Source of the DNA: Planctomycetia bacterium
Lineage (GTDB): Bacteria > Planctomycetota > Planctomycetia > Pirellulales > PALSA-1355
Assembly: GCA_016200205.1 (NCBI GenBank)
Contig: JACQFF010000013.1
Span: 1 to 44,496, forward strand
DNA: 44,496 nucleotides
Reading direction: 5' to 3'
The notes beneath the pieces were generated by a model. The model ran no database searches. It was given only the letters and a program-made list of their open reading frames with translations, and had not been told where the DNA came from. This document shows positions 9,477-30,285 of this stretch, in pieces. Positions within the stretch are counted from its first letter, which is position 1. Each line of letters starts with the position of its first letter. Both the position numbers and the translations under genes were made by a program.

Positions 9477-9785
9477 AAACGAAGCAAGGCACGGACGTTC
9501 CGCACCCGCTGTCAACCGAATTGCCAATAGAATTTTACACTATTCCCCGGTTTTGTACCACCTGGATGGGTTAATTAGCAGATAATTTGGATACGTCATC
9601 GGTAGTACCCGGTGAATTGCACGAAAGTTCTGAAATCTGGCTGGATTGAGGTGACGTTCGTGCAGGTGCACGCGCACTGCGACCACCGTACGCCCGGTAA
9701 AGCTGCTCGACCGAAGGGAATCGGGAAGCTAGGCTGGTCTATTGCCCTCCTCTGTTTTCCCGCCCTAAAGTGCAGGAGCCCGGCC
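9475..9785. other. Divergent intergenic region upstream of the giant repeat gene
   Basis: This 311-bp stretch is AT-richer between 9525 and 9600, including GATAAT at 9581-9586 as a possible -10 for the plus strand, but without a -35 at proper spacing. At its right end AGGAG (9774-9778) lies seven bases before a TTG codon at 9786. The frame is open upstream to a GTG at 9612, but those residues look unlike an exported protein start. Confidence 0.45.
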
Positions 9786-12700
9786 TTGGCTCGCTTCGAG
9801 AAAGCCTCCGCGTGGTGGATGGCCATCATCCCGGCCGTCGTTTTTGAATTCGCGGCGGATTTCGTCCCGGCTCAGCAGCCGGCGACCGCTCCTTCGATCG
9901 GGAGTTTTGCGCGCCTCAGCGAACCGGCCGTGGCGGAAAAACTGAAGCTCACCGACCAGCAGCGCTCCAAAATCGCGGCCCTGCGGATCGAGCGGACCGA
10001 AGCGCTTTCCCAGGCCGCGCCGGCCGATCGCGCGAAGGTGCTCGACGATTTTGAGCAGAAACTCGCGGCTCTTTTGAGCGAAGAGCAGCGCGCTGGATTG
10101 GTCACAGCCCCTGCCGATGTCCAGGCCGATATCAAACTGCGATTCAATTTTCGATTCCAGCGCTGGAGCGACGTGCTGGAGTGGTTTGCCGAGCAGGCCC
10201 AGCTCTCGCTCGTCCTCGATACGCCTCCGCCGGGCACATTCAATTACAGCGATGGCCGCGAGTACACTGTTTCCGAAGCGCTCGACTTGCTCAACGGCGT
10301 GCTCTCGACGAAAGGCTTCACGCTCATTCGTCGCGAGAAAATGCTGTTGGTGGTCAATGCCGCCGAAGGCATTCCCGAAACTCTCGTGCCCCGCATCGAA
10401 TTGGCCGATCTGGAAAAGCGGGGGAAATTCGAACTCGTCAGCATGTTGTTCAAAATCGGCGAGCGGAACGTGGATGATGTGATGAAGGAAATCGGTCCTT
10501 TGCTGGGACCGCGCGGCAAGAGCTTGCCGCTACCCAAGACTAAACAGGTGCTGGTGACCGACACCGCGGGCGTAATGCGCGCGATCCACGCGGTGATCGA
10601 ATCGATGCCGCAGCCCGAAGCAGCACAGGAACCATCGCCGCCCGAGAAGCCGGAGTTGGTTGTCTACCCGCTCAAGTCGGTGGATCCCGATGCCGCGATA
10701 AAGGTATTGGAAGCGTTGATGCCGGAGGGTCGTTTCGTGCGCGATCCAAAAGCCAATCAGCTCAGCGCCTATGCCACGCCCTCGCAGCAGGCGGCGGTCA
10801 AACGCGTCTTGGAACAGATGCAAGCATCCAATGTTCCGCCCGAGCAGCAAGCCCGATTCGAGGTGTATATGCTCGAAGAAGGCGATCCCAAGCAGGCGCT
10901 TGCGACCTTGCAGCCGCTGGTGCCCAACGCCAAACTTTCGGTCGACGCGACGAGCAAGAAACTCGCGGCTTGGGGCTCCCCGGCCGACCATGAAATCTTG
11001 AAGAAGGCCATTGGCCAACTGCGCGGCGGCGGTGCGGACGATGATCGGCAGTTGGAAGTCTATCGCTTGAGCAAGGTCGATCCCGCTACCGCCACGGTGG
11101 TGCTGCAAAGCCTGGTGCCGCGCGCTCGGCTGTCGGTCGATCCGCCCACTCGCAGCATTGTCGCGCTGGCAAGCCTGGCCGACCAGAAAATCATCGCGGC
11201 CACGCTAAACCAGTTGGAGCCGCGCCAGCGCGATCCGAACGCGCCGGAGTTGCGGTTTTATATTCTCGCCGGCCCCGCACCGCCCAATTTGGTGACGGTG
11301 CTGCAAACGATGGCTCCCAAGGCCCAAGTGAGCGTCGATAACACCGCCAGGCGATTGACCGTGGTGGCCACTCCGACCGACCACAAGATCGTCCAAGATG
11401 CCATCGCGCAATTTCAGAAAGCCGCGCCCGACGAGGAGAAGCGCCAACTGGTTCTCTATCCTGTTTCGGCGGCCCAACGCAAGCGATTCCAGCTCGTGCT
11501 ACAGGATCTGACCGCCGAATTTCCCACCGTTAAAGTGTTGACCGATGCCGAACCGGGGGAATTAGCCGTGTGGGCCAGGCCGGCCGAACACAAAGTGATC
11601 GCCGATGTCATCGAAAAGTTGAAGCAGCAAGCGCCCGCGGAAGAAGCGTATCGACTGGTGGCTTATTCGATCAAAACGGCCGATCCGACGAGCGTGTTGA
11701 GCGTGCTGCAGAATCTATTCCCCGCCACCAAGGTTTTCCTCGATCCCAAAACGAAGCGGATCGTGGCTTGGACCCGCGCCGCGGAGCACGAGGCGATCAA
11801 ATCGCTGGTCGAGCAGGTTGATGTCGAAGCGACGGCCGAATCGAAAAACCAGTTGATGATCTACCCCTTTACCGGCGCCGATCCCACGGCGGCGATCACG
11901 ACGCTCAAAATATTGGTGCCGGAGGCGATTTTGACCAGCGACACCAAGGCGGGCACGATCGTGGCCTGGGCCCGCAAGGCGGATCACGCCCTGATCGCGC
12001 CGGCGCTTGAACGCATGCAGCCGAACTCGGATCCCAAGCGGCGGCCCCACGTGGTGGCTTATGCGGTGGGAGCGTCGGATCCGAATACGCTGTCTCCGCT
12101 CATCACGGCGTTGGTGCCCACCGCCCGCGTGGTGCCGAATGCCAAGAACGGCACGCTGGCCGTCTGGGCCAGCCCGGAAGATCACGAAACGATCCGCCTG
12201 GCCATCGAAGAGATGACCAAAAACGGAGCGCTGGATTCGGCCGCCCAGGTCATTGCCTATCCGCTCAAAATAGCCGAGCCGACCAGCGTGGTCGGCATGA
12301 TGCAGACGCTGTTCCCGGCTTCGCGAATGACGTTTGACGCCAAGAACAAGCGATTGTTGATTTTCGGAAGGCCGGCGGAGCAGCAGCAGATCAAAACAAC
12401 CCTCGAGCAGATGGACGCCAAGCCGGGCGCGGAAGCGAATCGGCAATTGGCCGTGTTTCCGATTACGGGAACCGACCCGACGGCCACGATTACGATGCTC
12501 AAGAGCCTCGTGCCGGAAACGACGCTCACGAGCGACATCAAGGCGGGCACCATCGTGGCTTGGGGCCCGCAGGCTGAGTTGGACCAAATCGCTCCGGCGA
12601 TCGAGCGGATGCAGCCCAACTCGGATCCCAAGCGGCGGCCCCACATGGTGGCTTATGCGGTGGGAGCGAGCGATCCGACGGTGCTGGCCCCGCTCGTCAC

Positions 12701-14861
12701 CGCGCTTGTGCCCACGGCCCGCGCGGTGCCGAACGTCAAGACCGGCACGATCGCGGTCTGGGCCACGCCGGAGGATCACGTCACGATCCGCTCGGCCATC
12801 GAGGAGATGACCGCCAAGCGGTCCGACGACAACGCGGCGAAAGTGGTGGTCTATTCGCTGAAATCGATGCGTGCCGCCAGCGCGATCCAAGCTTTGCAGC
12901 CGACCGTGCCCGAGGCTCGGTTGGGGATGGGCGCGGGCCTCAACTCGCGCAAGCTCGTCGCGTTTGCCCGGCCGGCCGATCATGCGATCATCCGCGGTGC
13001 CCTGGAGGAACTCGATCAAGAAGAGATGGAGCGAAACGGACCGGTACTGAAGACCTATCCGATCGCCGCGGCCGATCCAACGACGATGCTCGGCACGCTG
13101 CAGGCGATGTTCGCGGCGCGCAGCGAAGTTCGTTTCTCGCTCGATGCCAAGACCAACAAGATCGTGGCCATGGCCACGCCGGCCGTTCACGAAACGATCC
13201 GCGGCGTGATCGAGGAGCTCGAACGCGGCTCTCAGCTCGATACAACCACGAAATTGGAAGTTCATCCGCTGCGCAACGCCGATCCCGACGTGGTCATGCA
13301 GGTTTTGAACAACCTGGTGACAAAGCAGTCGTCGCGCGTGTTGCTGTCGGTCGATGCGAAAGCCAGGCAGTTGATCGCCGTGGCTCCTCCCGAGCAACAG
13401 GCAAGGATTCTCGAAGCCATTGAGCGCTTGCAAACGGCCTCGCGAGAGCTGGAAGTGTTTCAACTGGAAATCGTCGAACCGTTGACCGCCGAGCTGGCCA
13501 TCGAAAAACTTTTCAGCGAGGCAGTTGGCGGTTCTTCCAAGGCTGCCAATGCGCCGATCGTCGATTCCGATGCCACGACGCAACGCCTCTACGTGCGGGC
13601 CAGCAAAGAACAACTCGAACAGATCCGCGAGCTGTTAGTGAAGATGGGCGAGACGAGCCTCCTGACGGCCGGCGACGGTGCCGGGCGCGGATTGCGCGTG
13701 ATTCCATTTTCCGGCGATACCAAAGCGGCGCTGGCGGAAATCCAACGAGTTTGGCCTCAATTGAGCAAACATCCGCTGCGAATTCTGCAGGCGCACGAAT
13801 CGCCGCCCCGATCGGGCCTCAAACTGCCCAAGCAAAAAGGCAACGCCGCGCCAAAGCCGGTACTGCCCGAAAGACCCGCCCCGGCGGTTCCGAAGACCGA
13901 CGATGCCGAACGAGGTCTCGATAAGCAGACCAGCATTGACCGGACCGCCGCGGAAGTGATCGAGGTCAAAACGGGCGCCCAAGAAGGGCCAACGGAACAC
14001 GGCGCTTCGGCGGACGAAAAGAAACAGCAAGACGCGGCGGCCGTGACGACGAAGGACAAGAAAAACGGCGAAGAAGCTGAGGGAACCACGCCGATCATCG
14101 TGGCGCCGGGCGACGACAAGATCACCATTATGTCGGACGATCGCCAGGCGATCGATCAGCTCGAATCTTTGTTGCGCGCTCTCTCGCCTCCGAGGGGATC
14201 GGGGGGCCGCGACATCATGGTGTTTCCGTTGCATAGCGCCAGCAGCACCACGGTTGCCGAACTGCTGCAAAAACTTTTTCGCCGCGGCTCCTTGGATTTT
14301 CGCGACTCGTCTGGTGTGGTCGTGGAATCCGATCAGCGGCTCAACGCGATCGTAGTGTACGGCGGCCGCAGCGATCGAGCGGCGATCGAACGGCTGCTGA
14401 AGGTGCTCGATTCGGAAGACGTGCCCGAATCGCTCGTCGCCAATCGGCCGAGTTTGATCCCGGTAAAGAACACGAATGCAGTGCGGATCGAACAAGTGCT
14501 CAAGGACATCTACAAAACACAACTCACCTCGGGCGGGGTGAAACAGCAAATTCCAGTGCCCAGTGGAGCGAGCCGAGAAGTGGCCGCCGTGATTCAGCAG
14601 ATCAATACCGCCGCCACGGGCCCGCTGATGACGCTGGGAGTCGACGATACGACCAATTCGATCGTGATCATGGCCCCGGGACCCTTGGTCAAGGAAGTGT
14701 CCGAGCTGGTCGCCGCGCTGGACGGAGCCGCACTTGACGACTCGTCGCGGGGCGTGAAGATCGTCAAGCTGAAGAGCACCAGCGCCCAGCGTGTGAAAGA
14801 CACGTTGGACACGATCATCAAGGACGCGCTCAAGCGGCGCGCGACCAGCGCCCGGCCTTAA
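9786..14861 (+). CDS. Giant exported secretin-N-domain repeat protein without secretin core
   Basis: A 1691-residue protein from a TTG start at 9786. AGGAG lies seven bases upstream, and translation from there gives a signal-like N-terminus (MARFEKASAWWMAIIPAVV, then VPAQQ). Residues ~30-100 are a Lys/Ala helical LTxxQ-like segment. Residues ~115-195 resemble the STN/N0 domain of secretins (DVLEWFAEQAQLSLVLD). From residue 289 to ~1300 there are about fifteen tandem repeats of ~66 residues with the secretin N-domain (NolW-like) pattern: 'VYPLKS.DP..A...L..L.P.A....D.....L.AWA.P.DH..I...I..L'. A disordered Lys/Glu/Ala-rich linker (~1345-1440) and two to three more N-like domains follow. No beta-barrel core or VPYLADVP-like signature exists. 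Probably a periplasmic partner of the adjacent T2SS; this is inferred from the domain type and location. Confidence 0.82.
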   Translation: MARFEKASAWWMAIIPAVVFEFAADFVPAQQPATAPSIGSFARLSEPAVAEKLKLTDQQRSKIAALRIERTEALSQAAPADRAKVLDDFEQKLAALLSEEQRAGLVTAPADVQADIKLRFNFRFQRWSDVLEWFAEQAQLSLVLDTPPPGTFNYSDGREYTVSEALDLLNGVLSTKGFTLIRREKMLLVVNAAEGIPETLVPRIELADLEKRGKFELVSMLFKIGERNVDDVMKEIGPLLGPRGKSLPLPKTKQVLVTDTAGVMRAIHAVIESMPQPEAAQEPSPPEKPELVVYPLKSVDPDAAIKVLEALMPEGRFVRDPKANQLSAYATPSQQAAVKRVLEQMQASNVPPEQQARFEVYMLEEGDPKQALATLQPLVPNAKLSVDATSKKLAAWGSPADHEILKKAIGQLRGGGADDDRQLEVYRLSKVDPATATVVLQSLVPRARLSVDPPTRSIVALASLADQKIIAATLNQLEPRQRDPNAPELRFYILAGPAPPNLVTVLQTMAPKAQVSVDNTARRLTVVATPTDHKIVQDAIAQFQKAAPDEEKRQLVLYPVSAAQRKRFQLVLQDLTAEFPTVKVLTDAEPGELAVWARPAEHKVIADVIEKLKQQAPAEEAYRLVAYSIKTADPTSVLSVLQNLFPATKVFLDPKTKRIVAWTRAAEHEAIKSLVEQVDVEATAESKNQLMIYPFTGADPTAAITTLKILVPEAILTSDTKAGTIVAWARKADHALIAPALERMQPNSDPKRRPHVVAYAVGASDPNTLSPLITALVPTARVVPNAKNGTLAVWASPEDHETIRLAIEEMTKNGALDSAAQVIAYPLKIAEPTSVVGMMQTLFPASRMTFDAKNKRLLIFGRPAEQQQIKTTLEQMDAKPGAEANRQLAVFPITGTDPTATITMLKSLVPETTLTSDIKAGTIVAWGPQAELDQIAPAIERMQPNSDPKRRPHMVAYAVGASDPTVLAPLVTALVPTARAVPNVKTGTIAVWATPEDHVTIRSAIEEMTAKRSDDNAAKVVVYSLKSMRAASAIQALQPTVPEARLGMGAGLNSRKLVAFARPADHAIIRGALEELDQEEMERNGPVLKTYPIAAADPTTMLGTLQAMFAARSEVRFSLDAKTNKIVAMATPAVHETIRGVIEELERGSQLDTTTKLEVHPLRNADPDVVMQVLNNLVTKQSSRVLLSVDAKARQLIAVAPPEQQARILEAIERLQTASRELEVFQLEIVEPLTAELAIEKLFSEAVGGSSKAANAPIVDSDATTQRLYVRASKEQLEQIRELLVKMGETSLLTAGDGAGRGLRVIPFSGDTKAALAEIQRVWPQLSKHPLRILQAHESPPRSGLKLPKQKGNAAPKPVLPERPAPAVPKTDDAERGLDKQTSIDRTAAEVIEVKTGAQEGPTEHGASADEKKQQDAAAVTTKDKKNGEEAEGTTPIIVAPGDDKITIMSDDRQAIDQLESLLRALSPPRGSGGRDIMVFPLHSASSTTVAELLQKLFRRGSLDFRDSSGVVVESDQRLNAIVVYGGRSDRAAIERLLKVLDSEDVPESLVANRPSLIPVKNTNAVRIEQVLKDIYKTQLTSGGVKQQIPVPSGASREVAAVIQQINTAATGPLMTLGVDDTTNSIVIMAPGPLVKEVSELVAALDGAALDDSSRGVKIVKLKSTSAQRVKDTLDTIIKDALKRRATSARP
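11646..12239 (+). repeat. 594-bp tandem duplication, first copy
   Basis: Encodes three 66-residue N-domain repeats (beginning AYRLVAYSIKTADPTSV). It matches the following copy unit for unit at an exact 594-bp offset. The best-conserved part is in the second and third units, where ERMQPNSDPKRRPH and VVAYAVGASDP recur almost unchanged. At DNA level AACTCGGATCCCAAGCGGCG occurs at 12024 and again at 12618. Confidence 0.85.
12240..12833 (+). repeat. 594-bp tandem duplication, second copy
   Basis: Second copy of the three-repeat block (beginning AAQVIAYPLKIAEPTSV). The first unit has diverged considerably, while the last two are nearly identical to those of the first copy in places. That uneven divergence suggests later partial gene conversion or uneven selection. 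The copies are in frame, so the protein simply gained three domains. Confidence 0.85.
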
Positions 14862-14876
14862 GCGGATGCGTCTCGT

Positions 14877-15647
14877 TCAAGGCTCCGCGGGCCGCGCGGG
14901 CTCGCCCGCCGCCGTCGCGCCAGCTTTGCTCTTGGCGTCTTTGCCGGCGCGCAGGAATTCTTGCACGGTCAAAATGCCGTCGCGATTCGAATCGTAGCGG
15001 TTGAAATCGTCGATTTCGCTCTTGAGCAGCTTCGGTGAGTATTCCGATAGCGTCAATTGGCCATCGCCATCGGCGTCGCGCTGGATGAACCACTGCGGCA
15101 CTCCTGAGGGGAGCGAGGCAAAATACTTCGTGTCCCGGCGGCGATCCGGTTTTTCCGAGAGTTGGCTGGGCTCTGAATTGCCCGTCCCGTTGGCATCGCT
15201 CGATCGTGGGTCGTCGCCGCGAGGGCTCGAATCCTGGGAACGGTCGTGAGTCGCAACATCACCGGGCAACGTGCTCAGACGGATGGCCCGGCCGGCACCG
15301 TAGTTGGCGCAATACTGCGCGAACTCTTCAACCGTTATCACGCCGTCATGATTCAAGTCGGCCAGTTCCGGCTGTCCGCGCATCGAGCGCCATTCGTCGG
15401 ACTCGAGCTGTCCCGTTTTGTTGGTGTCATATTGGCGCACGATATACTGGGCGTAGCGCAGGAGCTTGGCGGTGACCGCGGCGGGGGCGGGCGCGCGAGG
15501 CGGTGGCGATTCTCCGCGTGCCGTGGTGCAAATCCTTGGCAGCAGTGCTAGTGATAGCACAATCGCAACCGCGCAGGATTCGAAACGCAACACGCTGGGC
15601 GCGGCCGACCGCTCGGTCAATGGCGTGTTCAATTTGTCTCGATGCAT
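14877..15647 (-). CDS. Exported protein with four EF-hand calcium-binding loops
   Basis: A 256-residue protein from the ATG at 15647. It has an N-terminal hydrophobic export segment at residues ~24-38 (CAVAIVLSLALLPRIC). Two EF-hand pairs follow. The first has YDTNKTGQLESDEW and DLNHDGVITVEEF; the second has RDADGDGQLTLSEY and YDSNRDGILTVQEF. They are separated by a Ser/Asp/Arg-rich low-complexity linker of ~80 residues. All four loops keep Asp at position 1 and Asp, Asn or Thr at the other liganding positions with a final Glu, so calcium binding is likely. A longer in-frame start at 15746 exists. The gene sits convergent to the giant repeat gene and divergent from gspE, so it could be a T2SS substrate or accessory protein; function unknown. 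Confidence 0.75.
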   Translation of the reverse strand: MHRDKLNTPLTERSAAPSVLRFESCAVAIVLSLALLPRICTTARGESPPPRAPAPAAVTAKLLRYAQYIVRQYDTNKTGQLESDEWRSMRGQPELADLNHDGVITVEEFAQYCANYGAGRAIRLSTLPGDVATHDRSQDSSPRGDDPRSSDANGTGNSEPSQLSEKPDRRRDTKYFASLPSGVPQWFIQRDADGDGQLTLSEYSPKLLKSEIDDFNRYDSNRDGILTVQEFLRAGKDAKSKAGATAAGEPARPAEP

Positions 15648-15739
15648 TGACAAAAACTGTTTCACTGAAACTAGATAGGCGTGATAGAGCACGATGTTCG
15701 CGTACGGAGTTTCGTGGCCGCATGGCGGGCGTGCAGCCC

Positions 15740-15769
15740 TTGACATTTGCGGATCGCATCAGCTATAGT
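15740..15769 (+). promoter_or_regulatory. Strong sigma70-like promoter of the T2SS operon
   Basis: A perfect -35 TTGACA (15740-15745), an 18-base spacer and -10 TATAGT (15764-15769, five of six) point toward gspE. The start site would be near 15776, giving a leader of about 310 nt before the gspE ATG at 16085. It is the best promoter sequence I found in the window. Confidence 0.6.
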
Positions 15770-15895: not shown

Positions 15896-16084
15896 GGTCA
15901 GCGGCAAGTGTTTGATAATTGACGGTGACTGCGGAAACGTCATCGCGTTGGTTGAGTTTCCGATCAATGGATCGGGAATGCCGAGAATTGCCAGAGTTTG
16001 GATACCCTTTTCGGCACTCAGCTCACCCGGTCGTTCGTGGCAGCTAAAAGTCATTTGGCCCTCCTCGTTTTTCGGATCGCGTTC

Positions 16085-17776
16085 ATGGTTTCCGGTCAAA
16101 TCTTGCTCGAAAAAGGGCTACTCGACGAGCGCCAGTTTCGCTTGGCGCGCGAAGCCCAAGCGGCCGATGGCCGATTGGACCGGGCCGCCGTCGAGCTGGG
16201 CTTTGTCAGCGAGGAAGACGCGCTGGCGGCCGTGGGCGAAGCGCTGGGTCTGGAGGTGGTCGATTTGGCCCATGCGCGGATGGACCTGGCACTGCTTAAA
16301 GATTTTCCGCTCAAGCTGATTCACCAGCACCAGATATTTCCGCTCCGCTGCGAAGACGGATCGCTGATCGTGGCAACCGGCGATCCGTTTGATTTGCACG
16401 CCTTGGACGCCGCCGGCGCCGCCACGGGCCGGAGTGTGTTGCCGGTATTGGTCTCGCCGAGCGAGTTGGCCAAGCTGATCAAAACCCATTTGGGCGTCGG
16501 CGCCGAGACGGTCGACGGACTGTTGGCACAGCGCGAAGAGCGCGGTGTCGAAGTGCTGGAAGAACTCGAATGGGACCGTTCGGAAGCCTCGGAGATGGCC
16601 CAAGAGGCTTCCGTCGTCCGGCTGGTCAACGAAATTCTCAGCGAAGCAGTGGAAGCCCGCGCCAGCGATATTCACCTCGAGGCCCAAGCCGCGGGCATCA
16701 AGATTCGCTACCGCATCGACGGCGTGCTGCAATTGCAACCGATGCCGCCGGAGATCAATCGCTTTCAAGCGGCGATCATCAGCCGCTTGAAGATCATGGC
16801 CAAGCTGAACATCGCCGAAAAGCGCGTGCCGCAAGATGGCCGCATCAAGCTCAAAGTGTCGGGGCGCGAAATCGACATCCGCGTTTCGATTATTCCCATG
16901 CTACACGGCGAAGGCATCGTGATGCGCGTTCTCGATAAGGACCGCATGGAATTCTCGCTGCGTGGCATCGGCATGGATCAAGACATCTACGAACAGTTCA
17001 GCCAACTCATCAAGTTGCCGCACGGCATCATTCTGGTCACCGGGCCGACGGGTTCGGGAAAGACCACCAGCTTGTACAGCGCGCTGAACGAAATCAAAAA
17101 CGAGGAGATCAAAATCGTCACCACCGAAGACCCGGTGGAATATCAATTGGAAGGCATCAACCAGATCCAGGTGCACACGAAAGTCGGGCTGACGTTCGCG
17201 GCCAGTTTGCGGAGCATTTTGCGTCACGACCCCGACGTGGTGCTGGTGGGCGAAATTCGCGACCTAGAGACGGCCGAAAACGCCATCCAAGCCTCGCTCA
17301 CCGGCCATTTGGTGTTCAGCACCTTGCACACCAACGACGCGGCGGGCGCCTTCATGCGGCTGGTCGAAATGGGCGTGGAGCCGTTTCTGGTTTCCAGCAC
17401 GGTCGCAGGCGTGATGGCTCAGCGGCTGGTGCGCACGTTGTGCCCCGAATGCCGTGAAGCCTACGTGCCCAAGGCGGCCGAAGTGCCCAACGATTTTCCC
17501 CTGCAAGAAATCTTGAATCGCGGCGATCAGCTCTATCGCCCGGTCGGCTGCCGCCGTTGCCGCGGCAAGGGATACACCGGGCGCGTGGGACTTTATGAGT
17601 TGCTCGTCGCCAACGACGAACTGCGTCAATTGACCGGCGAGCGGATCGCCTCGCACAAAATCAAACAAGCCGCCATGAAAGCGGGAATGCGGACACTGCG
17701 CCAGGATGGCTGGAGAAAAGTGGCCCGAGGACAAACCACGATCGACGAAGTGATGCGCGTGACTGGCGCCGACTAG
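16085..17776 (+). CDS. gspE: Type II secretion ATPase GspE
   Basis: A 563-residue cytoplasmic hexameric ATPase that powers pseudopilus assembly. The N-terminal MshEN-like domain (residues ~5-150) begins SGQILLEKGLLDERQFRLAR. The catalytic domain has Walker A GPTGSGKTTS at residues 320-329, Asp box EDPVEYQLEGINQI, Walker B VVLVGEIRD, and the His-box segment TLHTNDAAGAFMRLVEMGV. The zinc-binding tetracysteine is present as LCPEC and GCRRCRGKGYTGR. All catalytic motifs are intact. I chose the ATG at 16085, where family similarity starts. It is first in the T2SS operon, with gspF 67 bases downstream. Confidence 0.96.
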   Translation: MVSGQILLEKGLLDERQFRLAREAQAADGRLDRAAVELGFVSEEDALAAVGEALGLEVVDLAHARMDLALLKDFPLKLIHQHQIFPLRCEDGSLIVATGDPFDLHALDAAGAATGRSVLPVLVSPSELAKLIKTHLGVGAETVDGLLAQREERGVEVLEELEWDRSEASEMAQEASVVRLVNEILSEAVEARASDIHLEAQAAGIKIRYRIDGVLQLQPMPPEINRFQAAIISRLKIMAKLNIAEKRVPQDGRIKLKVSGREIDIRVSIIPMLHGEGIVMRVLDKDRMEFSLRGIGMDQDIYEQFSQLIKLPHGIILVTGPTGSGKTTSLYSALNEIKNEEIKIVTTEDPVEYQLEGINQIQVHTKVGLTFAASLRSILRHDPDVVLVGEIRDLETAENAIQASLTGHLVFSTLHTNDAAGAFMRLVEMGVEPFLVSSTVAGVMAQRLVRTLCPECREAYVPKAAEVPNDFPLQEILNRGDQLYRPVGCRRCRGKGYTGRVGLYELLVANDELRQLTGERIASHKIKQAAMKAGMRTLRQDGWRKVARGQTTIDEVMRVTGAD

Positions 17777-17843
17777 TTCCCCGCAACGACCCACCTACCG
17801 GTTCAATGTTACCCCCGAACTCCCACCCGCGGTTCGATACGCG

Positions 17844-19052
17844 ATGCCAGAATTTGCCTACAAAGCGCGCAACCACGCCGGCAGCGACGTGACCGGCACG
17901 ATCACCGCTGCCAGTAAACGCGAGGCGCTCTGCGCGCTGGGCGAACGCGAACTGTTTCCGATGAGCGTGGAAACCTCGTCGCCGGCACGAATCGCATGGC
18001 GGCGCAAGGGCCGCATCAAGACGCAATTGCTGGCCACGACCCTGACGCAAATGGCCGATCTGCTCCAAAGCGGCGTACCCATGCTGCGGTCGTTGGACGT
18101 GTTGGCCGAGCAAGCGGTCCATCCGGCCTTGGCCGAAGTGCTCGGCGACGTGCGCAACCAGGTGGCCGAGGGCACGCCGCTGGACGAAGCCATGGCGCGT
18201 CATCCGCGGGTGTTCAGCGAACTGACGATCAGCATGGTCCGCGCCGGCAGCGAAGGGGCGTTTCTGGAAGACGCGCTCAAGCGCACCGCCGATTTTTTGG
18301 AGAAACAAGAAGAGCTTCGCGGCCGCATCGTCGGCGCCATGACGTATCCGGCCATATTGGCCACCGCCGGTTTCGTGGTCACCGTGGTGTTGATCGTGTT
18401 CTTCGTGCCAAAATTTTCCGAACTGTTCGCCCGCTTGGAAGAGCAGGGCGGGCTGCCGGCGGCCACGGTGGCGCTCTTGTGGATCAGCGATGTGCTTGGG
18501 CGGTTTGGAGTGCTCGTGGCCGCGGCGGTGGCGGCGGCCTTGTATTTCGCCCGCCGCCAGTTGCGCACCGACGAGGGGCGGTTGTTTGCAGATCGCACGA
18601 AGTTGAAGATCCCCATCGCCGGCAAGATTTTCTTGGGCTATGCCATCTCGCGCTTTTGCCGCGTGCTGGGAACACTCTTGCGCAATGGGGTGCCGCTACT
18701 CAAATCGCTGGAGATTTCCAGCGATTCGACCGGCAACCGCGTGCTTTCGCGGGCGATTCGCGACTCGGCCGAAAACGTGTCGTCCGGCGAAACCCTGGCC
18801 AAGCCGTTGGCCGAGTGCGGCCTGATCCCCCGGCCGGTGATGGCCATGATCAGCGTGGCCGAGGAATCGAACAATTTGGACCACGTGTTGATCAATATCG
18901 CCGATGGAATCGATCGGCAAACGAGCATGCAATTGGATTTGATGGTGCGGCTGTTGGAGCCGTTGACGCTGTTGATCATGGCCAGTGCCATTTTATTTGT
19001 GTTGATCGCGCTGTTGCTGCCGGTGTTCCAGATGAGTTCCACCGTGACGTGA
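17844..19052 (+). CDS. gspF: Type II secretion inner-membrane platform protein GspF
   Basis: A 402-residue polytopic membrane protein with two GspF (T2SSF) repeats and three transmembrane segments. It opens with the family signature MPEFAYKARNHAGSDVTGTI. The first cytoplasmic domain (LATTLTQMADLLQSGVPMLRSL) precedes a TM at about residues 170-190 (YPAILATAGFVVTVVLIVFF) and another at ~212-235. The second repeat (SRFCRVLGTLLRNGVPLLKS) ends in the final TM near the C-terminus (LLIMASAILFVLIALLLPVF). It couples GspE to the pseudopilus. Length and motifs are normal. Confidence 0.95.
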   Translation: MPEFAYKARNHAGSDVTGTITAASKREALCALGERELFPMSVETSSPARIAWRRKGRIKTQLLATTLTQMADLLQSGVPMLRSLDVLAEQAVHPALAEVLGDVRNQVAEGTPLDEAMARHPRVFSELTISMVRAGSEGAFLEDALKRTADFLEKQEELRGRIVGAMTYPAILATAGFVVTVVLIVFFVPKFSELFARLEEQGGLPAATVALLWISDVLGRFGVLVAAAVAAALYFARRQLRTDEGRLFADRTKLKIPIAGKIFLGYAISRFCRVLGTLLRNGVPLLKSLEISSDSTGNRVLSRAIRDSAENVSSGETLAKPLAECGLIPRPVMAMISVAEESNNLDHVLINIADGIDRQTSMQLDLMVRLLEPLTLLIMASAILFVLIALLLPVFQMSSTVT

Positions 19053-19133
19053 AACCGGCGGCATCCGAGGCGATTGAAATACCCGTTGTTTTAATTGGTA
19101 AACCAGAGCGACTAGCTACAGGAGTGCGTCTTT

Positions 19134-19598
19134 ATGTCACAACGAAAAGTCAACATTGCCAAACGGCAAGCCTTCACGCTGATGGAAGTCTTGCTGGTGC
19201 TTGTGATTTTGGTGGTCCTGATGGGATTCGCCGTGCCCTCGCTGTTGAGCGGCAAGAAGAAAGCCGATCTCGACGCCGCCAAGGCGCAGATCGGCCTGTT
19301 TCGACCGGCCTTGGAGCGTTACGCCCTGAACCTGGGGGATTTTCCCACCACCGAGCAAGGGCTGGATGCCCTGTCCGAAGCCCCTGCTGACTTGGATGAA
19401 GACAAAAAATCGGACTGGGCAGGACCGTACATTTCGACTATTTCCAAAGACCCGTGGGGACATAAATTCTTCTACGAGTTTCCGCCCACGCATGGGACCA
19501 GCGAATTTCCGGACATCTGGTCCTCGGGTCCCGACGGCAAAGATGGAACCGAAGACGACATCGTGAGTTGGAACAAGGATGAAGAGCGCAAGAAGTAG
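19134..19598 (+). CDS. gspG: Major pseudopilin GspG
   Basis: A 154-residue pseudopilin, the main subunit of the T2SS pseudopilus. The prepilin signature AFTLMEVLLVLVILVVLMGF is at residues 13-32, with Glu at +5 of the mature protein and Ala rather than the classical Gly at -1. The globular part has LERYALNLGDFPTTEQGLDAL and a C-terminal calcium-site segment (IWSSGPDGKDGTEDDIVSWN), typical of GspG. AGGAG lies about ten bases before the ATG. An 81-bp gap after gspF leaves room for its own promoter, which would suit a high-copy subunit. Processing needs a prepilin peptidase that is not in the window. Confidence 0.95.
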   Translation: MSQRKVNIAKRQAFTLMEVLLVLVILVVLMGFAVPSLLSGKKKADLDAAKAQIGLFRPALERYALNLGDFPTTEQGLDALSEAPADLDEDKKSDWAGPYISTISKDPWGHKFFYEFPPTHGTSEFPDIWSSGPDGKDGTEDDIVSWNKDEERKK

Positions 19599-19647
19599 GT
19601 TTTTTGATTGCGGAGGGGCAGGTTGTTGCAAGCGACGAGGTGCTACC

Positions 19648-20238
19648 ATGAGTCAAGCAAACGATCGAATCTCGCGGAAGGGTTACACGCTTTCCGAAAT
19701 GCTCGTCGTGTTGTCGGTCTTGGTGACCGTCACGGCGCTGAGCCAGCCGGCGCTGCGCGAAGCGCTCAGCGATAGCCGCTTGCGATCGGCCGCGAAGCAG
19801 GTCCGCGTGGAACTAGCTAAGACGCGGCTCAAGGCGATGAAGTCGGGCGTTGCTTTGCAGTTTCGTTACAAGCTGGGCCAAAGCCGTTTCGAAATCGCTC
19901 CAACTTCGCTCGCGGACGGGCACGGCCGCGCAGGCGCGCGCATCGATCGCGATCGGCAGCGCGACGAAACCACGGATCCCGTGCTGGAAAGCGTCGTCGA
20001 GCAGGATCTTCCCCAAGGCGTGAGTTTCGAGCTGGAAGATCAGGGGGATGTTCAAGCGGTCGCCGCGGTCAGTGAAGATGGCTGGTCGGATCCCATCGTG
20101 TTTTATCCCAATGGCCGGACCGAGAATGCCCACATTCGGCTCAAGGGCGAACACCGCGCGTTTGTCGAAGTCTCGCTGCGCGGGCTGACCGGCGTGGCCA
20201 CGGCCAGCAAGCCGCGGCACGAAGAGGAACTGCGATGA
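19648..20238 (+). CDS. gspH: Minor pseudopilin GspH (GspH/FimT type)
   Basis: A 196-residue minor pseudopilin. The prepilin signature GYTLSEMLVVLSVLVTVTAL begins at residue 12, with Gly at -1 and Glu at +5. The conserved GspH helix continues as LRSAAKQVRVELAKTRLKAM, then a beta-rich domain with NGRTENAHIRLKGEH and a C-terminal GLTGVATASK, as is typical of GspH. I chose the ATG at 19648 (MSQANDRISRKG), which gives a normal short basic leader. Gene order G-H-I-J-K is the standard T2SS order. Confidence 0.88.
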   Translation: MSQANDRISRKGYTLSEMLVVLSVLVTVTALSQPALREALSDSRLRSAAKQVRVELAKTRLKAMKSGVALQFRYKLGQSRFEIAPTSLADGHGRAGARIDRDRQRDETTDPVLESVVEQDLPQGVSFELEDQGDVQAVAAVSEDGWSDPIVFYPNGRTENAHIRLKGEHRAFVEVSLRGLTGVATASKPRHEEELR

Positions 20239-20690
20239 CATGCAGGCCACGGTACGGATTTTCGTTGTTGGAAGTGCTGCTGGCCACGGGCATCATGATC
20301 GGCTCGGCCATCGTGCTGATGGAACTGGTGAGTATCGGCAGCCGGCACGCCAGCTCGGCCCGCGACCTGGCCAAGTCGCAATTGATTTGCCAGACCAAGC
20401 TGAATGAGATTCTGGCCCACGTTGCACGCATCGAGCCGTCGCGTCCCACGCCCTCCGAGGACGATCCCCAGTGGGTGGTTTGGGTCGATCTGCGTCCGTT
20501 GCCGCAGTCGGGCTTCGTCGCACTCGAGGTGAGCGCCGCGCATGAGCCGAAGCCGCAAAAGCAGTCGGCCAAATTCACATTGGTCCGCTGGATTCGCGAC
20601 CCGCAGGCTCGCGACAACATCGATCAGCAAAACGCGTCGGCTAGTGCCGCTGGCAAGCTGACCGATTCGAAGCGAGGGCCGACTCCGTGA
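20235..20690 (+). CDS. gspI: Minor pseudopilin GspI-like
   Basis: A 151-residue pseudopilin whose start overlaps the gspH stop by four bases. The prepilin signature GFSLLEVLLATGIMIGSAIV starts at residue 8, with Gly at -1 and Glu at +5. The family feature of GspI, a conserved helix before the globular domain, is seen in AKSQLICQTKLNEILAH. The C-terminal ~35 residues are polar and unlike the usual family end. It sits in the GspI position of the operon and probably forms the pseudopilus tip with GspJ and GspK. Confidence 0.82.
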   Translation: MTCRPRYGFSLLEVLLATGIMIGSAIVLMELVSIGSRHASSARDLAKSQLICQTKLNEILAHVARIEPSRPTPSEDDPQWVVWVDLRPLPQSGFVALEVSAAHEPKPQKQSAKFTLVRWIRDPQARDNIDQQNASASAAGKLTDSKRGPTP

Positions 20691-21949
20691 GCACTCGCCA
20701 TCCGCACGTTCGCACGACCCACGCCTTTACGCTGATCGAGGTCTTGTTGACGATGGTTCTGGCCGCCGCGCTGTTGGCCGGCTTGTGGACGCTGCTGAGC
20801 ATGCATTCGCGATTGTTCGACACGGGGCAGACCAAAACCGAGCAATCCCAGTTGGCCCGCACGCTGCTACAGCAGATGTCGGACGATCTGCACGCGATCG
20901 TGCAGGCGCCGCCCCCGCCGCCGCCTGCTCCGCCCCAGTCCGGCTTGCTATCGGGCGGACCCGGCAGCGCACCCCCCTCGTCGAATTCGCCAACCACTGC
21001 GGGAACCCCGGGAGTCGCACCGGCCACTGGCGCCAATGGGGCAAGTGCTCCGCCGTCGCCCGCTGGCGCGCAGTCGGCAGTGGCGCCGCCGGCCAATCCG
21101 GCCGCTGATCGGTCGCCCGGGCCCGCGCCGGTCGCGCCGGCCAGTCCTGCTGGTCCCAATGCCACCGCGCCGCCAATACCCAACGCGACACCGCCCGCGT
21201 CGAGCGCCCTGGCGGTGACGTCTTCGCTGCGCCCCTCGGGGCTGTTCGGCACGGAGAATTACTTGCAGATGGACATCCTGCAGCCGGCAGTTGCTCGGCC
21301 CGAGGCCGAGCTTGATGAGCGGCTGCCAATGGGAGCGAAACGGCCCTCGCGCGCCGCCGAGTTGCAAACCGTGGTCTACGCGTTCGAAGAGGGGCGAGAT
21401 CCGCAGCATCCCTCGGGAGAACTGCGGACGTTTCTAGTGCGCCGTGAACTCGACTGGGAGCAAGCCCATGCCGCAAAGCGCGCCCCCGCCCGGCCCCCGC
21501 GAGGACCATTTTCGACCACCGACGGTACTGATGCCGCCGCAATGATGGAGCCGATTCCGTCGGAGGTCCGTTCCGAGGGCGCAGACGACAAGTCCAGCGC
21601 GAAGGTGCCGGAGGTGGCGCAGTTTGGGATTCGGTACTTCGATGGAGGAGAGTGGCTGAAGGAATGGGACAGCGCGACGCGCAAGGCATTGCCCCTGGCG
21701 ATCGAGGTGGTTGTGCAGTTGCGTGCTTTCGACGAACCGGAGCAGCAATCGCATCACTTGACGAACGAATCGGCGAGTGAAGAATCCAAAGTCAAGCCGC
21801 CGCAACTGCCCATCTATCGTTTGGTGATCCATTTGCCAGCGGCCGCCGAGCCGGTCCATGGCGATGGCCGGAGCCAACTGGTCAACTTTGGCGGCCGTGG
21901 CGGCGCCGAACGACCTCTGGGGGCGGACACAAATGGCGCACGTCGCTAA
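20687..21949 (+). CDS. gspJ: Minor pseudopilin GspJ-like with proline/alanine-rich insert
   Basis: A 420-residue protein, twice the usual GspJ length. The start is a GTG that overlaps the gspI stop (GTGA). The prepilin signature AFTLIEVLLTMVLAAALLAG is at residues 13-32, with Ala at -1. The N-terminal helix (QLARTLLQQMSDDLHAIV) is as expected. Residues ~70-180 are a Pro/Ala/Gly-rich stretch beginning PPPPPPAPP, low in complexity and probably disordered. A beta-rich globular part follows, with YFDGGEWLKEWDSATRKALP and a LPLAIEVVVQL strand typical of GspJ. It may extend the tip outward; role inferred. Confidence 0.85.
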   Translation: MSTRHPHVRTTHAFTLIEVLLTMVLAAALLAGLWTLLSMHSRLFDTGQTKTEQSQLARTLLQQMSDDLHAIVQAPPPPPPAPPQSGLLSGGPGSAPPSSNSPTTAGTPGVAPATGANGASAPPSPAGAQSAVAPPANPAADRSPGPAPVAPASPAGPNATAPPIPNATPPASSALAVTSSLRPSGLFGTENYLQMDILQPAVARPEAELDERLPMGAKRPSRAAELQTVVYAFEEGRDPQHPSGELRTFLVRRELDWEQAHAAKRAPARPPRGPFSTTDGTDAAAMMEPIPSEVRSEGADDKSSAKVPEVAQFGIRYFDGGEWLKEWDSATRKALPLAIEVVVQLRAFDEPEQQSHHLTNESASEESKVKPPQLPIYRLVIHLPAAAEPVHGDGRSQLVNFGGRGGAERPLGADTNGARR

Positions 21950-23603
21950 GGGCAAGTCCCGCCGCAAGTACGATGCACGTGGTCCGGCAGGAAGCCCCGC
22001 CCGAGCCGCCATGGTCTTGGTCCTCGTGCTGATCGTGGTGGTGATGATCGCGCTGGCCGGCTTCAGCTTCGCCGAACTGATGCTTACGGAAAATAAGGCC
22101 ACGCACCTGCATGGTGATGAATTGCGGCTGGAGCAGGCGATTGGCTCGGGCGTGGAATTCTTGAAATGGCTTTGCGAACAGCCGGCGGAGAAGCAAAACC
22201 TCGTCGGTGGGCTGTACAACAACCCCACGTTACTGCGCGGAATTCCGCTGGTGCCCGAAGATCGCTCTATCCGCCGCGCCCCGTCACATCAGGCCCACTT
22301 CAGCGTGATCGCCCCTTTGATGCAAGAGGGCGAGGTGTCGGGTATTCGCTTCGGGGTGGAAAACGAATCGGGCCGGTTGCACCTGGCGGACTTACTGCGA
22401 TGGGATCAGCAGCAGCCGGGCAGTGGCCGCAAGGCGCTGTTGAATTTTCCGGGCATGACCCCCGCGGTGGCTGACGCGATCTTGGATTGGATCGATGCTG
22501 ATCGAGTGCCGCGCGAGACGGGCGCGGAGACCGAATACTACGCCGGCCTTGAGCAGCCCTACGCCCCGCGCAATGGTCTGCCGGAGTGCTTGGAGGAACT
22601 GCTGCTGGTCAAAGGAGTTACGCGCGAATTGTTATTCGGCGCCGACGCCAACTACAATCATCAGATAGAACCCGAAGAGTTGGCGCGGGCCTCGACGCAT
22701 GAGCGATCCGCGTCGCAAGGGTTGAAAACCACGCCCTGGGCCTCACTCCTGACCCTCTATAGCGGCCAGCGTAATTTGACCTCCGACGGCCGACCTCGCG
22801 TCGATCTCAACGGCATGGACCTGACAAAACTTTTTCAGCAGTTGATTGAAGCACTCGACCCGAACTGGGCAGGCTTCATCGTTGCCTATCGTCAGTATGG
22901 GCCCTATTTCGGCGCCGACCCAGGCGTGGCCGGCGTGCCTCCGCCGGACGTCGCGACGGGGCCACGCTTTATGATTGGCTCGGTGCTCGACGTGGTGGGT
23001 ACGCGAGTGGCGATTCCCGGCGCGGCCGGACAGCCGGCGAAAGTTTATGCCAGCCCCGCAGCCGGCGATGCGGCGTCGTCGAGCCAACAATTGCCCAAGC
23101 TGCTGGATAAAACCACCGTGATCGGCGCGCCGGTCCTTCGCGGCGGAGTGAGTGTGAACCATGCGCCCCGCGCCGTATTGCTCTGTGTGCCTGGCATGGA
23201 CGACGCCCTGGCCGGTCGCATCATCGCGGCCCGCGACTCGCAAACGAATAAAGACGATCTCAGCCGACGCTATCCCACGTGGTTATTGAGCGAGGGCGTG
23301 GTCGATTTGCCGCGGATGCGAACGTTGCTGCCCAACCTTTCGGCAGGCGGCGACGTCGTGCGGGCTCAAATTGTTGGCCACTTCGACGGCGGCGGGCCGT
23401 CGGCTCGCGCCGAAATCGTGATCGACGCCGCCACCGTTCCGGCGCGGCAAGTGGTTTGGAACGATCTGCGGCTGTGGGGAACGGGATATCCGTTGGAGTA
23501 CCTGGCAGCCGACGGAGCCAGTGCAGGCGATTACCGTCGGCGCGGTCGCGGCGACCGAGCCGGCGCCGCCGTGCATCAATCAGCGGGCCGCAACGCTCGT
23601 TAG
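21933..23603 (+). CDS. gspK: Minor pseudopilin GspK
   Basis: A 556-residue protein that caps the pseudopilus tip. The start at 21933 overlaps the end of gspJ by 17 bases and has a G-rich ribosome site. A hydrophobic N-terminal segment (MVLVLVLIVVVMIALAGFSF, residues ~27-46) lacks Glu5, as is normal for GspK. The family signature is present: FPGMTPAVADAILDWIDAD, then an ETEYYAGLEQPYAPRNG element and LEELLLVKGVTRELLFG. A second helix-hairpin-helix-like element appears at VPGMDDALAGRIIAA. It is longer than proteobacterial GspK (~330) and carries a beta-rich C-terminal addition. Confidence 0.92.
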   Translation: MAHVAKGKSRRKYDARGPAGSPARAAMVLVLVLIVVVMIALAGFSFAELMLTENKATHLHGDELRLEQAIGSGVEFLKWLCEQPAEKQNLVGGLYNNPTLLRGIPLVPEDRSIRRAPSHQAHFSVIAPLMQEGEVSGIRFGVENESGRLHLADLLRWDQQQPGSGRKALLNFPGMTPAVADAILDWIDADRVPRETGAETEYYAGLEQPYAPRNGLPECLEELLLVKGVTRELLFGADANYNHQIEPEELARASTHERSASQGLKTTPWASLLTLYSGQRNLTSDGRPRVDLNGMDLTKLFQQLIEALDPNWAGFIVAYRQYGPYFGADPGVAGVPPPDVATGPRFMIGSVLDVVGTRVAIPGAAGQPAKVYASPAAGDAASSSQQLPKLLDKTTVIGAPVLRGGVSVNHAPRAVLLCVPGMDDALAGRIIAARDSQTNKDDLSRRYPTWLLSEGVVDLPRMRTLLPNLSAGGDVVRAQIVGHFDGGGPSARAEIVIDAATVPARQVVWNDLRLWGTGYPLEYLAADGASAGDYRRRGRGDRAGAAVHQSAGRNAR

Positions 23604-23650
23604 ACCAAAGATCAAAACAGCGGCAGCTTCGGAAAGGGCTTGGTTACAAA

Positions 23651-25201
23651 ATGGCGCGATGGCTGGCATTTGATTGGGACCAACACGAAGCGCGCTATGT
23701 TGTGGCCAGCACGCGTGGCTCGCGACTGGCGATCGAAGCGGCCGGCAGCGTCAGTATACCGCCGGGGGCTGAGGGCGGCAGTTCTCGATTGCAAGCGGGC
23801 CTGGCATTGCAACCGGTCTTGGCCGCGCACAAACTCGGCCGCGTGGCGGCGTTGTTGGGCATCGAACGCAGCCAGGTCGAAGTTCTCAACCTCTCGCTCC
23901 CTCCGTCGGCCGACAGCGAACTGCCGGAGATGGTGCGCAACCAGGCCATGCGCGAGTCGAACGTCGTCGCGGACGATACAGTGCTCGACTTTGTGCCATT
24001 GAACGATGATCCGGCCAAGCCGCGCAAAGTGGCCGCGGTCGCTCTTTCGCGCGAACGCCTGGAGCAGATTCAAGCGATTTGCCTGGACGCCGGAGTCGCC
24101 CCCGACGCGATTGTCCTGCGGCCCTACTCGGCCGCGGCACTGTTGGCGAGCTCGTCCGACCGACGCGAAGGTGCCTCGCTGCTCATCAACGTGTTTGCCG
24201 AGGAAGTCGATTTGAGCATTCTCGTCGATGGCAAAGTCGTGTTTTGGCGCACCGTCCGGCGGAGCAACGCTTCGCAGGACCCGGCAGCGGCCAAAAAACT
24301 GGTCGCCGAAATCAATCGCACCCTGGTCGTCGCGCAAAGCCAACTGGTGGGCCAGACGGTCGGAGCAGCCTATTTGTTTGGCTCGCTGGCCGAGCATCCG
24401 GCGCTACTGGAACAATTGGGCGGCGATTTTCCGATCGCCGTGACGCTCGTCGACCCATTTGCCACGAGAGCCCAACCGCCCGCGGAGATTCCGGAAAACG
24501 CCGGCCGCTTCAGCTCGCTGTTGGGCATGTTGACCGTCGAAGCCGAGCGCGGCGCTCACGTGATCGATTTTCTGCATCCGCGGAAAAAACCGGCTCCCCC
24601 CGACCGGCGTCGGACGGCGACCCTGGCTGGCCTTGCCGCGGGCCTGATGGTCCTGCTGGTGGGCTACCGTGTGTGGACCACGTTTGCTCAGGTCGCTGCG
24701 GAAAACGAATCCTTGACGGCGGAGTTGGACAAGCTCGACGAAAAGTTCAAGCAAGCCAGTAAGCAGCAAAAGGTCATCCAAGCCATTCGCGATTGGGGCG
24801 AAAACGACGTCAATTGGCTCGACGAACTTCGCGACCTCTCGTTGCGGATGCCTGGCGGCCGCGATGCCGTGCTGCTGAGGATGAACATGACCCATTCGCG
24901 CATCTCCGGCGGCACGATCGAGATGACGGGCGTGGTCCGGGATCCGGTGATCGTGAGTCGGATTGAGAACAGCTTGCGCGACAAGTTCCATCAAATCGCG
25001 AGCAAACACGTGCAAGAGCGGATGCAAGATAAAAGTTACTCCTGGCACTTCGAGTCGTCGTTGGTCGTCGCGCCGCGCGACAAGGGGCAATACGTCAGCC
25101 ATCTTCCCAACCGCCCGGAACCGAGCGACAAAGAATCCTCCGAAGAAAAAAAAAGGACCACGGCGAAGAGCAAAGCTTCCAGGCGGTCCGCGGCGAATTA
25201 A
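23651..25201 (+). CDS. gspL: GspL-like protein (PilM/PilN fusion)
   Basis: A 516-residue protein from the ATG at 23651, with GGAAAGG about 13 bases upstream. Residues 1-310 are an actin-like PilM/GspL cytoplasmic domain (MARWLAFDWDQHEARYVVAS, then LSLPPSADSELPEMVRNQA, then LINVFAEEVDLSILVDGK). A single TM lies at ~318-338, followed by a coiled coil (ENESLTAELDKLDEKF) and a ferredoxin-like periplasmic domain typical of PilN/GspL. It recruits GspE to the membrane. A run of nine A bases at 25146-25154, 47 bases before the stop, could allow slippage into the frame that ends at the gspM start. The C-terminal ~30 residues are charged and disordered. Confidence 0.85.
   Translation: MARWLAFDWDQHEARYVVASTRGSRLAIEAAGSVSIPPGAEGGSSRLQAGLALQPVLAAHKLGRVAALLGIERSQVEVLNLSLPPSADSELPEMVRNQAMRESNVVADDTVLDFVPLNDDPAKPRKVAAVALSRERLEQIQAICLDAGVAPDAIVLRPYSAAALLASSSDRREGASLLINVFAEEVDLSILVDGKVVFWRTVRRSNASQDPAAAKKLVAEINRTLVVAQSQLVGQTVGAAYLFGSLAEHPALLEQLGGDFPIAVTLVDPFATRAQPPAEIPENAGRFSSLLGMLTVEAERGAHVIDFLHPRKKPAPPDRRRTATLAGLAAGLMVLLVGYRVWTTFAQVAAENESLTAELDKLDEKFKQASKQQKVIQAIRDWGENDVNWLDELRDLSLRMPGGRDAVLLRMNMTHSRISGGTIEMTGVVRDPVIVSRIENSLRDKFHQIASKHVQERMQDKSYSWHFESSLVVAPRDKGQYVSHLPNRPEPSDKESSEEKKRTTAKSKASRRSAAN
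25146..25154 (+). repeat. A9 homopolymer near the 3' end of gspL
   Basis: Nine consecutive A residues inside codons for Glu-Lys-Lys-Arg. A transcript or genome with eight A's would change the last 18 codons and end at 25217, overlapping the GTG start of the next gene as GTGA. This is a classical tract for polymerase slippage and for sequencing error. Confidence 0.8.
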
Positions 25202-25213
25202 AACGGTGAAGCT

Positions 25214-26098
25214 GTGAACAAGCGTGAAATGATCCTCGCCGCCGGTTTGGGCGCCATCGCGGCAGCCTATGGTGGACATTGGATCTATCAAGCCAGTTAC
25301 GAAACACCGCTGGCCGAGCGGCGTGAGGAAACTGGCCGGCTGCGCGAAGATATCGAAAAGCGCAAACTCGATCTGGCCCGTTTTCAAAAAGCCAGCAAGG
25401 AATTAAAGCACTGGCAGGCCCAATCACTGCCCTCCGATACGGAAGTCGCCCGCAGCTTGTATCAAGCCTGGCTGGTGGGACTGGTCAGTTCGGCCGGATT
25501 CAGCAATCCGAACGTCGACTCCAGCGAGCCGGTGACGCGCAAGGGCATGTACGATGCGCTCAACTTTTCGGTCCGCAGCCGCGGTTCGCTCAAGCAATTG
25601 ACGAGATTTCTGTTCGACTTTTATCGGGCCGATCATTTGCATCAGATTCAATCGATGAGCCTGACGCCGGTGCCGCGGTTGGAAGAGCTTGAAATCGTGC
25701 TTGCAATCGAAGCCTTCTCCTTGCCGGAGGCAGATCGGCAGAAGCAACTCAGTATGAAAGTGTCGGATCGGCTTGCCTCCGAGAATCTGGCCGAGTACCA
25801 GGCCATCGTCGAGCGAAATCTGTTCGGCGTCGGCGGCAATGGGGCCGACGAAGCGGACTTCGCATACTTGACGGCCGTCATCGAGGTGAATGGCGAGCCC
25901 GAGGCTTGGTTCACGCTGCGAGCTTCCGGAAAACTGCTCAAACTGCGGCGACAACAGAGTTTCGAAATCGGACAGTTCAAGGGAACGGTCGCCGAGATCC
26001 ATGGTTCTGAGGTCGTTCTGCTTTGCGACGACGAACGATGGCTGATTTCCGTCGGTGAGAATCTGATGCAAGCTAGCACCTTGCCGGCCGAGTTTTGA
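25214..26098 (+). CDS. GspM/PilO-like protein with C-terminal GspC/PilP-like domain
   Basis: A 294-residue inner-membrane protein starting at GTG. A short N-terminal TM (AAGLGAIAAAYGGHWIY) is followed by a coiled coil and a PilO/GspM-like ferredoxin fold (residues ~75-175, RGSLKQLTRFLFDFYRADHL). After a linker (LAEYQAIVERNLFGVGG, ~195-212), the last ~85 residues (LTAVIEVNGEPEAWFTLRAS, FEIGQFKGTVAEIHGSEVVL) match the layout of the GspC homology region/PilP beta domain, which contacts the secretin N0 domain. No separate gspC was found, so this protein may serve as both M and C. Domain calls are by pattern only; the fusion call is tentative. Confidence 0.7.
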   Translation: MNKREMILAAGLGAIAAAYGGHWIYQASYETPLAERREETGRLREDIEKRKLDLARFQKASKELKHWQAQSLPSDTEVARSLYQAWLVGLVSSAGFSNPNVDSSEPVTRKGMYDALNFSVRSRGSLKQLTRFLFDFYRADHLHQIQSMSLTPVPRLEELEIVLAIEAFSLPEADRQKQLSMKVSDRLASENLAEYQAIVERNLFGVGGNGADEADFAYLTAVIEVNGEPEAWFTLRASGKLLKLRRQQSFEIGQFKGTVAEIHGSEVVLLCDDERWLISVGENLMQASTLPAEF

Positions 26099-26321
26099 CA
26101 AGCTTTGCGAAGCGGATGCGAATTACCCCAACCCTGTTGGTGCTCTGCTTTGCCCGCGCTTCCCGAAGTTGTTTTGCGGCGTGTTCAACGCATTGAGATC
26201 AACGCATCTAGCGAGATTGATCTTGGCGAGATGGACGGAGCATTGTACTCTCCGGGCCACATTTCTTAGTCGTGCGGGTTGGCTGCTCTGGGCCGGCTCG
26301 ACAAGTCCATAAGTCATTTCC

Positions 26322-30215: not shown

Positions 30216-30285
30216 GGCGACCTTTCGACGATCGTGCGGCAACGAAGCCGTTCTACAAACTCGCTATTCAGCAGCGCAAACACGG

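Follow-up and report, generated by a model that had tools for sequence, protein, structure and literature searches.

A core-less secretin paralogue with a giant N-domain array accompanies the type II secretion system in Planctomycetota

The window analysed here, a 44,496-nucleotide stretch of a Planctomycetia bacterium contig (assembly GCA_016200205.1, JACQFF010000013.1), carries a very long gene followed by the genes of a type II secretion system (T2SS). The order of the window was taken as Pirellulales from named relatives: all 80 of 80 belong to the Planctomycetota, and many are labelled Pirellulales. The long gene lies in an open frame (9612-14861, +) of 1749 codons counted from the first GTG. 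The start proposed in the original prediction, 9786, is a TTG at codon 59, directly ahead of a signal-peptide-like stretch, and yields a product of 1691 residues; the length of the protein is 1,691-1,749 residues, depending on the start. We name MULTI the core-less secretin paralogue encoded at 9786-14861 (+), together with its homologues, and its domain coordinates in residues refer to the 1749-codon frame. After it come, in order, an antisense EF-hand gene, gspE-F-G-H-I-J-K-L-M-D (15998-30215) and a lipoprotein-like gene (Table 1), confirming the predicted T2SS neighbour and its GspD with many N-domains of its own.

Table 1. Features of the MULTI locus and of related loci in other genomes
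Feature	Position	Strand	Evidence
MULTI gene, core-less secretin paralogue	9786..14861	+	open frame from 9612; Secretin_N E 2.8e-91, no PF00263
Signal peptide region	9786..9875	+	by eye: hydrophobic stretch then AQQ; similar stretches at homologues' starts
Helical LTxxQ-like region ahead of N0	9918..10106	+	PF07813 LTXXQ in 4/21 homologues, best E 1.6e-5
N0 domain (STN-like, GspD type), residues ~176-252	10137..10367	+	profile, Pfam in homologues, AF2, Foldseek
N1 domain, residues ~274-334	10431..10613	+	N0-N1 profile against PDB; AF2
Array of 14 regular N1-type repeats, residues 346-1275, period ~66	10647..13436	+	repeat model; AF2 of first units
N-type domain after array, residues 1277-1347	13440..13652	+	repeat model, AF2
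N-type domain split by disordered insert (13797-14078), residues 1360-1523	13689..14180	+	AF2
N-type domain, residues 1533-1602	14208..14417	+	best Pfam stretch 1537-1601; AF2
N-type domain with internal insert, residues 1612-1707	14445..14732	+	AF2
C-terminal half N-domain, residues ~1712-1746	14745..14858	+	AF2; GspD relative continues to last N-domains and core
EF-hand protein, between MULTI and gspE	14877..15746	-	PF13202 E 1.8e-17
gspE, T2SS ATPase	15998..17776	+	PF00437 E 4e-140
gspF and G to M genes	17844..26098	+	Pfam for F, J, K and PilM-like L; G, H, I, M by order and conservation
gspD, partner secretin: several Secretin_N domains and core, no N0	26322..30215	+	PF03958, PF00263
Lipoprotein-like gene after gspD	30136..31350	+	lipobox-like LAVGC; no Pfam match
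Fused giant secretins	L181:2227-16098, L167:5096-17734, L179:1308-16526, L180:3068-16936, L182:2219-16033		
Distant core-less secretin-N proteins	L188:5568-8237, L189:5737-8895, L190:5314-7998, L041:3905-7177		

Secretin_N (PF03958) is the sole convincing Pfam family in MULTI, far above the cut-off, with 8 stretches at E<=0.01 and 16 at E<=1, and it is significant in 21 of 21 homologues. Sixteen such stretches in a single frame, together with homologous arrays in dozens of genomes, exclude chance. Pfam detected in MULTI neither the secretin core (PF00263), nor the GspC domain (PF11356), nor any cargo-binding domain of known type. Other identities were considered and rejected: matches to KH-type nucleic-acid binders are weak and those to Secretin_N and GspD folds far stronger, no other repeat family, which the original prediction had named as a possible alternative, was convincing in Pfam, and a pseudogene or frame artefact is ruled out by the many complete homologues.

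The STN-like domain noticed originally is the N0 domain of GspD, and it is followed, as in the N-terminal region of GspD, by N1. Indeed, an N0-N1 profile built from 21 MULTI homologues matches PDB GspD N0-N1 chains in the correct order, PF21305 matches 9 of the 21 homologues (not the window protein alone), and the best solved structures retrieved by Foldseek with the MULTI model are the XcpQ N0-N1-N2 crystals, then PulD and GspD, the low TM-scores being attributable to the loose predicted domain arrangement. What had been described as about fifteen units of ~66 residues plus a few C-terminal ones resolves into N1 and 14 regular repeats, then four further N-type domains and a half domain. The repeats score 69-87 bits each with a model built from those same units, and this model also marks weaker N-type units towards the C-terminus. 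In the AF2 monomers, residues 165-680 (mean pLDDT 83) show the N0 fold, the N1 fold and repeated beta-alpha-beta-beta-alpha units, while residues 1205-1749 (pLDDT 75.6) contain further N-type units, one of them interrupted by a disordered insert, a terminal half unit and no barrel; the relative orientation of the domains is not confident (pTM 0.39 and 0.32). The insert has pLDDT <50, and an insert of GspD aligns at that place. The export signal, a by-eye reading that agrees with the prediction, is signal-peptide-like, and no transmembrane anchor beyond it was noticed by eye.

That the C-terminus conceals a channel core is ruled out, as was foreseen, by the AF2 model of that part and by the relatives: among 93 complete MULTI frames (a few genomes being counted twice) N0 is present in 93 and the core in none. 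The number of regular repeats varies widely, with 0-3 in 70 of the 93 and 11-34 in the other 23, and up to 48 in frames cut off by the ends of their loci; the largest open frame observed has 4169 residues. Tandem Repeats Finder gave no notable result in the window's gene, which argues that the array is old, save for one later duplication of three units. The trace of this duplication is, to judge from residue identities, repeats 7 and 10 (65% identical) and 8 and 11 (79%); other pairs share about 20-43%. A third class of core-less secretin-N proteins, shorter (about 900-1,090 residues) and more distant, often occurs alongside MULTI in the same genomes.

The relationship with the neighbouring secretin is close. 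The alignment of the C-terminal 545 residues of MULTI to GspD ~109-692 covers 521 columns (probability 99.8; in this single comparison, E 2.5e-30), with inserts at corresponding places in both, and MULTI ends in mid-N-domain, where GspD continues with more N-domain sequence and the core. Because this part is colinear with the N-region of GspD, we interpret MULTI as a paralogue of GspD whose core has been lost. Conversely, the N0 profile finds no N0 in any of 25 complete GspDs of the MULTI-partner type, even at E<=10, although the same model does detect it in the GspDs of family f21 and in those from other classes; Pfam N0/STN models match none of 17 partner-type GspDs, and the first domain of GspD aligns with MULTI N1, not with MULTI N0. 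The simplest reading of the order of events would be duplication, core loss and later loss of N0 from GspD. In the lineage of the window, a separate N-domain protein and a partner devoid of the matching N-terminal domain together suggest a split secretin. The rule that N0 is only ever in MULTI is not universal: the GspDs of five sampled f21 genomes, which lie on long branches in the N0-N1 tree, keep N0 with MULTI present, and N0 supplied in trans is therefore not general.

Fused forms exist elsewhere in the phylum. Single-chain giant secretins of 4,213-5,073 residues, comprising N0, a long Secretin_N array and the core, were found in four genomes of f22 and in one of f65 (G120), in classes other than that of the window. 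The two scanned with Pfam have 47 and 43 Secretin_N domains, the genes adjoin gspK-L-M or other gsp genes, and the split MULTI has no match in these genomes. They are direct evidence that a T2SS secretin can contain an array of this kind. The original description of a separate, free chain thus holds in that MULTI is a separate core-less protein, but it is not free in origin: it is a GspD paralogue, it carries the N0 that its partner lacks, and in other classes its counterpart is fused to the core.

Linkage to T2SS genes is recurrent without being strict. The order MULTI, EF-hand, gspE was found again in several families of the order, and the alternative order gspD, lipoprotein, MULTI in others. 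Of the 46 MULTI loci that span >=15 kb, 20 include a T2SS gene in the flanking sequence retrieved and 26 have none within about 10 kb, which contradicts perfect synteny. The expectation that homologues would not lie far from a T2SS is thus borne out by genome, since MULTI genomes nearly always have a long GspD, and only in part by locus. Other genes of the cluster deserve mention. The EF-hand protein has a signal-peptide-like start, and its antisense position between MULTI and gspE is kept across families. The lipoprotein-like gene is kept directly after gspD, 11 of its 19 homologues carry a lipobox, and it is a candidate pilotin. A Calpain-family protease-domain protein (PF00648, E 6.8e-21; 32871-34262, -) adjoins the cluster. 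No match to GspC (PF11356) was obtained anywhere in the window's genome at E<=10, with positive E. coli controls, an absence defined by sequence profile and for this one genome.

The linkage to the T2SS and the large, variable array would also suit a periplasmic substrate receptor or chaperone whose repeats capture many cargo molecules. We consider this improbable: the protein has no known cargo-binding domain, and the conserved N0 and GspD-like C-terminal set suit a structural use better. Of the three roles suggested originally, periplasmic extension, scaffold and substrate-capture filament, the first is the best supported, and the last has no specific support.

Co-inheritance points the same way as linkage. 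In 158 genomes of the order, the MULTI N0-N1 region is present in 99 of the 101 that have a long T2SS GspD, a figure that includes 29 of 31 genomes apparently without MULTI at a strict cut-off and recovered by a lenient re-search, some of which may carry the more distant paralogue and not MULTI itself; MULTI is present in only 2 of the 57 without a long GspD. The Fisher value for this co-occurrence is 1.7e-37, a statistic that ignores ancestry. Four other GspD-less genomes gave weak N1-type matches only, in short secretin-sized frames. In a set of 39 relatives, 25 have both MULTI and a long GspD, 13 have neither and 1 has MULTI alone. Presence and absence of the pair alternate inside families f1, f7, f13 and f17, and each of the 8 genomes in which two MULTI genes pass the strict cut-off also has two GspD loci. 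In the GspD tree, some of whose labels come from other genome content and not from direct linkage, the partners of giant and of short arrays separate (aLRT 99 and 96), and the groups of the MULTI N0-N1 tree match them. One genome of the same genus as the window (G001) and one of the same family (G003) are without both genes, pointing to joint loss in these close relatives. Two genomes of genus g176, G248 (L191) and G279, have a GspD without N0, and MULTI was not found in them even after the lenient re-search, possibly owing to incomplete assemblies. Judged by these distributions, MULTI and its GspD are co-inherited, and conserved linkage and co-occurrence together suggest that it is a T2SS component.

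These patterns bear on the idea that MULTI is uninvolved in type II secretion, being a decayed secretin duplicate or part of another envelope process that is linked to the T2SS only by descent. Some copies do lie away from T2SS genes and more distant core-less paralogues exist, but the long open frames are conserved over many families, presence and absence match those of the T2SS GspD almost perfectly, copy number included, and genomes that keep only other secretins have no MULTI. We regard this explanation as very improbable.

We therefore weigh two structural roles, MULTI being a T2SS part under both. The reading that we prefer, with a probability of roughly 0.55, is that MULTI represents the inner half, now detached, of a split T2SS secretin, a length-variable inner extension that links the inner- and outer-membrane complexes. 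The N-domains of MULTI would assemble as stacked rings in the periplasm. The C-terminal set, a counterpart of the N-region of GspD, would dock onto or interleave with the GspD rings; the array would extend across the wide periplasm of planctomycetes, placing N0 opposite the inner-membrane platform; and the repeat number would set its reach. MULTI would in this way supply N0 and a variable N-domain array between the platform and GspD, in a system without a recognisable GspC. Whereas domain composition, linkage and paralogy come from the analyses above, ring stacking and docking are what we infer from three observations: the N0-N1-N2 region of XcpQ forms rings without the core (PMC5646246); in Klebsiella GspC bridges the gap between the platform and the secretin N0 (PMC6882859), and no GspC match was found here; and the periplasm of planctomycetes is enlarged (PMC11131199).

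The chief alternative is that MULTI acts as a flexible tether or clamp in the periplasm, a few copies of which would hold the platform near GspD in place of GspC. The absence of a PF11356 match and the span of Klebsiella GspC (PMC6882859) fit a tether, the wide variation in repeat number is easier to accommodate in a tether than in a fixed stack, and the loose inter-domain orientation in AF2 agrees with it. It is opposed by the nature and order of the domains, which are ring-forming secretin domains in secretin order, N0 first and colinear with GspD, by the fused relatives that carry such arrays directly on the channel, and by the lack of a noticeable anchor beyond the signal peptide. On balance we find the tether rather unlikely, if still a serious competitor. 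Against the secretin extension stand the loose AF2 orientation, the roughly half of long loci without a nearby T2SS gene, the f21 GspDs that retain N0, and the two g176 genomes; moreover, 40-50 rings end to end would seem a great length even where the periplasm is wide. A stronger form of the secretin extension, in which the array is a periplasmic tube of stacked N-rings with its length set by the repeat number (about 20 rings here and about 50 in the largest relatives), is one that we advance tentatively and with some doubt. Such a tube would bridge the enlarged planctomycete periplasm over tens of nanometres and so couple the inner-membrane platform with the channel in the outer membrane; if true, it would exceed in length every other secretin conduit that we know of and would be an evolvable ruler of envelope width.

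Split secretins already have precedents. (i) In rhizobial type III secretion, RhcC1 and RhcC2 form a split secretin, and RhcC1 has been proposed as a linker to the inner-membrane ring (PMC3459982). As with MULTI and GspD, an N-domain part stands on its own gene at a conserved locus position and the partner secretin is without that part; however, RhcC1 is small, belongs to a T3SS and has a partner of Tad origin, whereas MULTI and its partner are paralogues of each other and MULTI carries a giant repeat array. (ii) Mitochondrial GspDN1-3 with a truncated GspD form a split T2SS secretin (PMC8134430), in which Secretin_N proteins and core protein are likewise separate and GspC is also missing; these proteins have single or half N-domains and no N0, unlike the MULTI family, with N0 and up to about 48 N-domains in one chain. 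(iii) GspD, XcpQ and PulD share with MULTI the domain types and order at the N-terminus (N0-N1-N2-N3), but have four N-domains and the core in one chain, in contrast to about 20 N-type domains and no core. (iv) The fused giant secretins (L167, L179-L182) likewise have N0 and then a long Secretin_N array beside gsp genes, with the core on the same chain instead of on a separate GspD. The giant array and its copy-number variation are absent from RhcC1/RhcC2 and from mitochondrial GspDN1-3. The open literature, which leaves subscription papers mostly uncovered, yielded no description of MULTI, of its giant array or of giant planctomycete secretins, and little on the planctomycete T2SS, in agreement with the original remark that no protein of this architecture had been described. 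Taken together, MULTI is real and widespread, and its giant array is apparently undescribed.

The usual picture of a secretin is a single-chain channel that has only a few N-domains. In this case, the channel would be shared between two genes, with an inner half grown to giant size, and the fused secretins of 4,200-5,100 residues represent a second unusual architecture. The repeat number of MULTI ranges from 0-3 to about 48, and yet its size class remains matched to the lineage of the partner. Planctomycetes are major polysaccharide degraders, and MULTI offers a testable answer to how a T2SS may cross their wide periplasm without a recognisable GspC.
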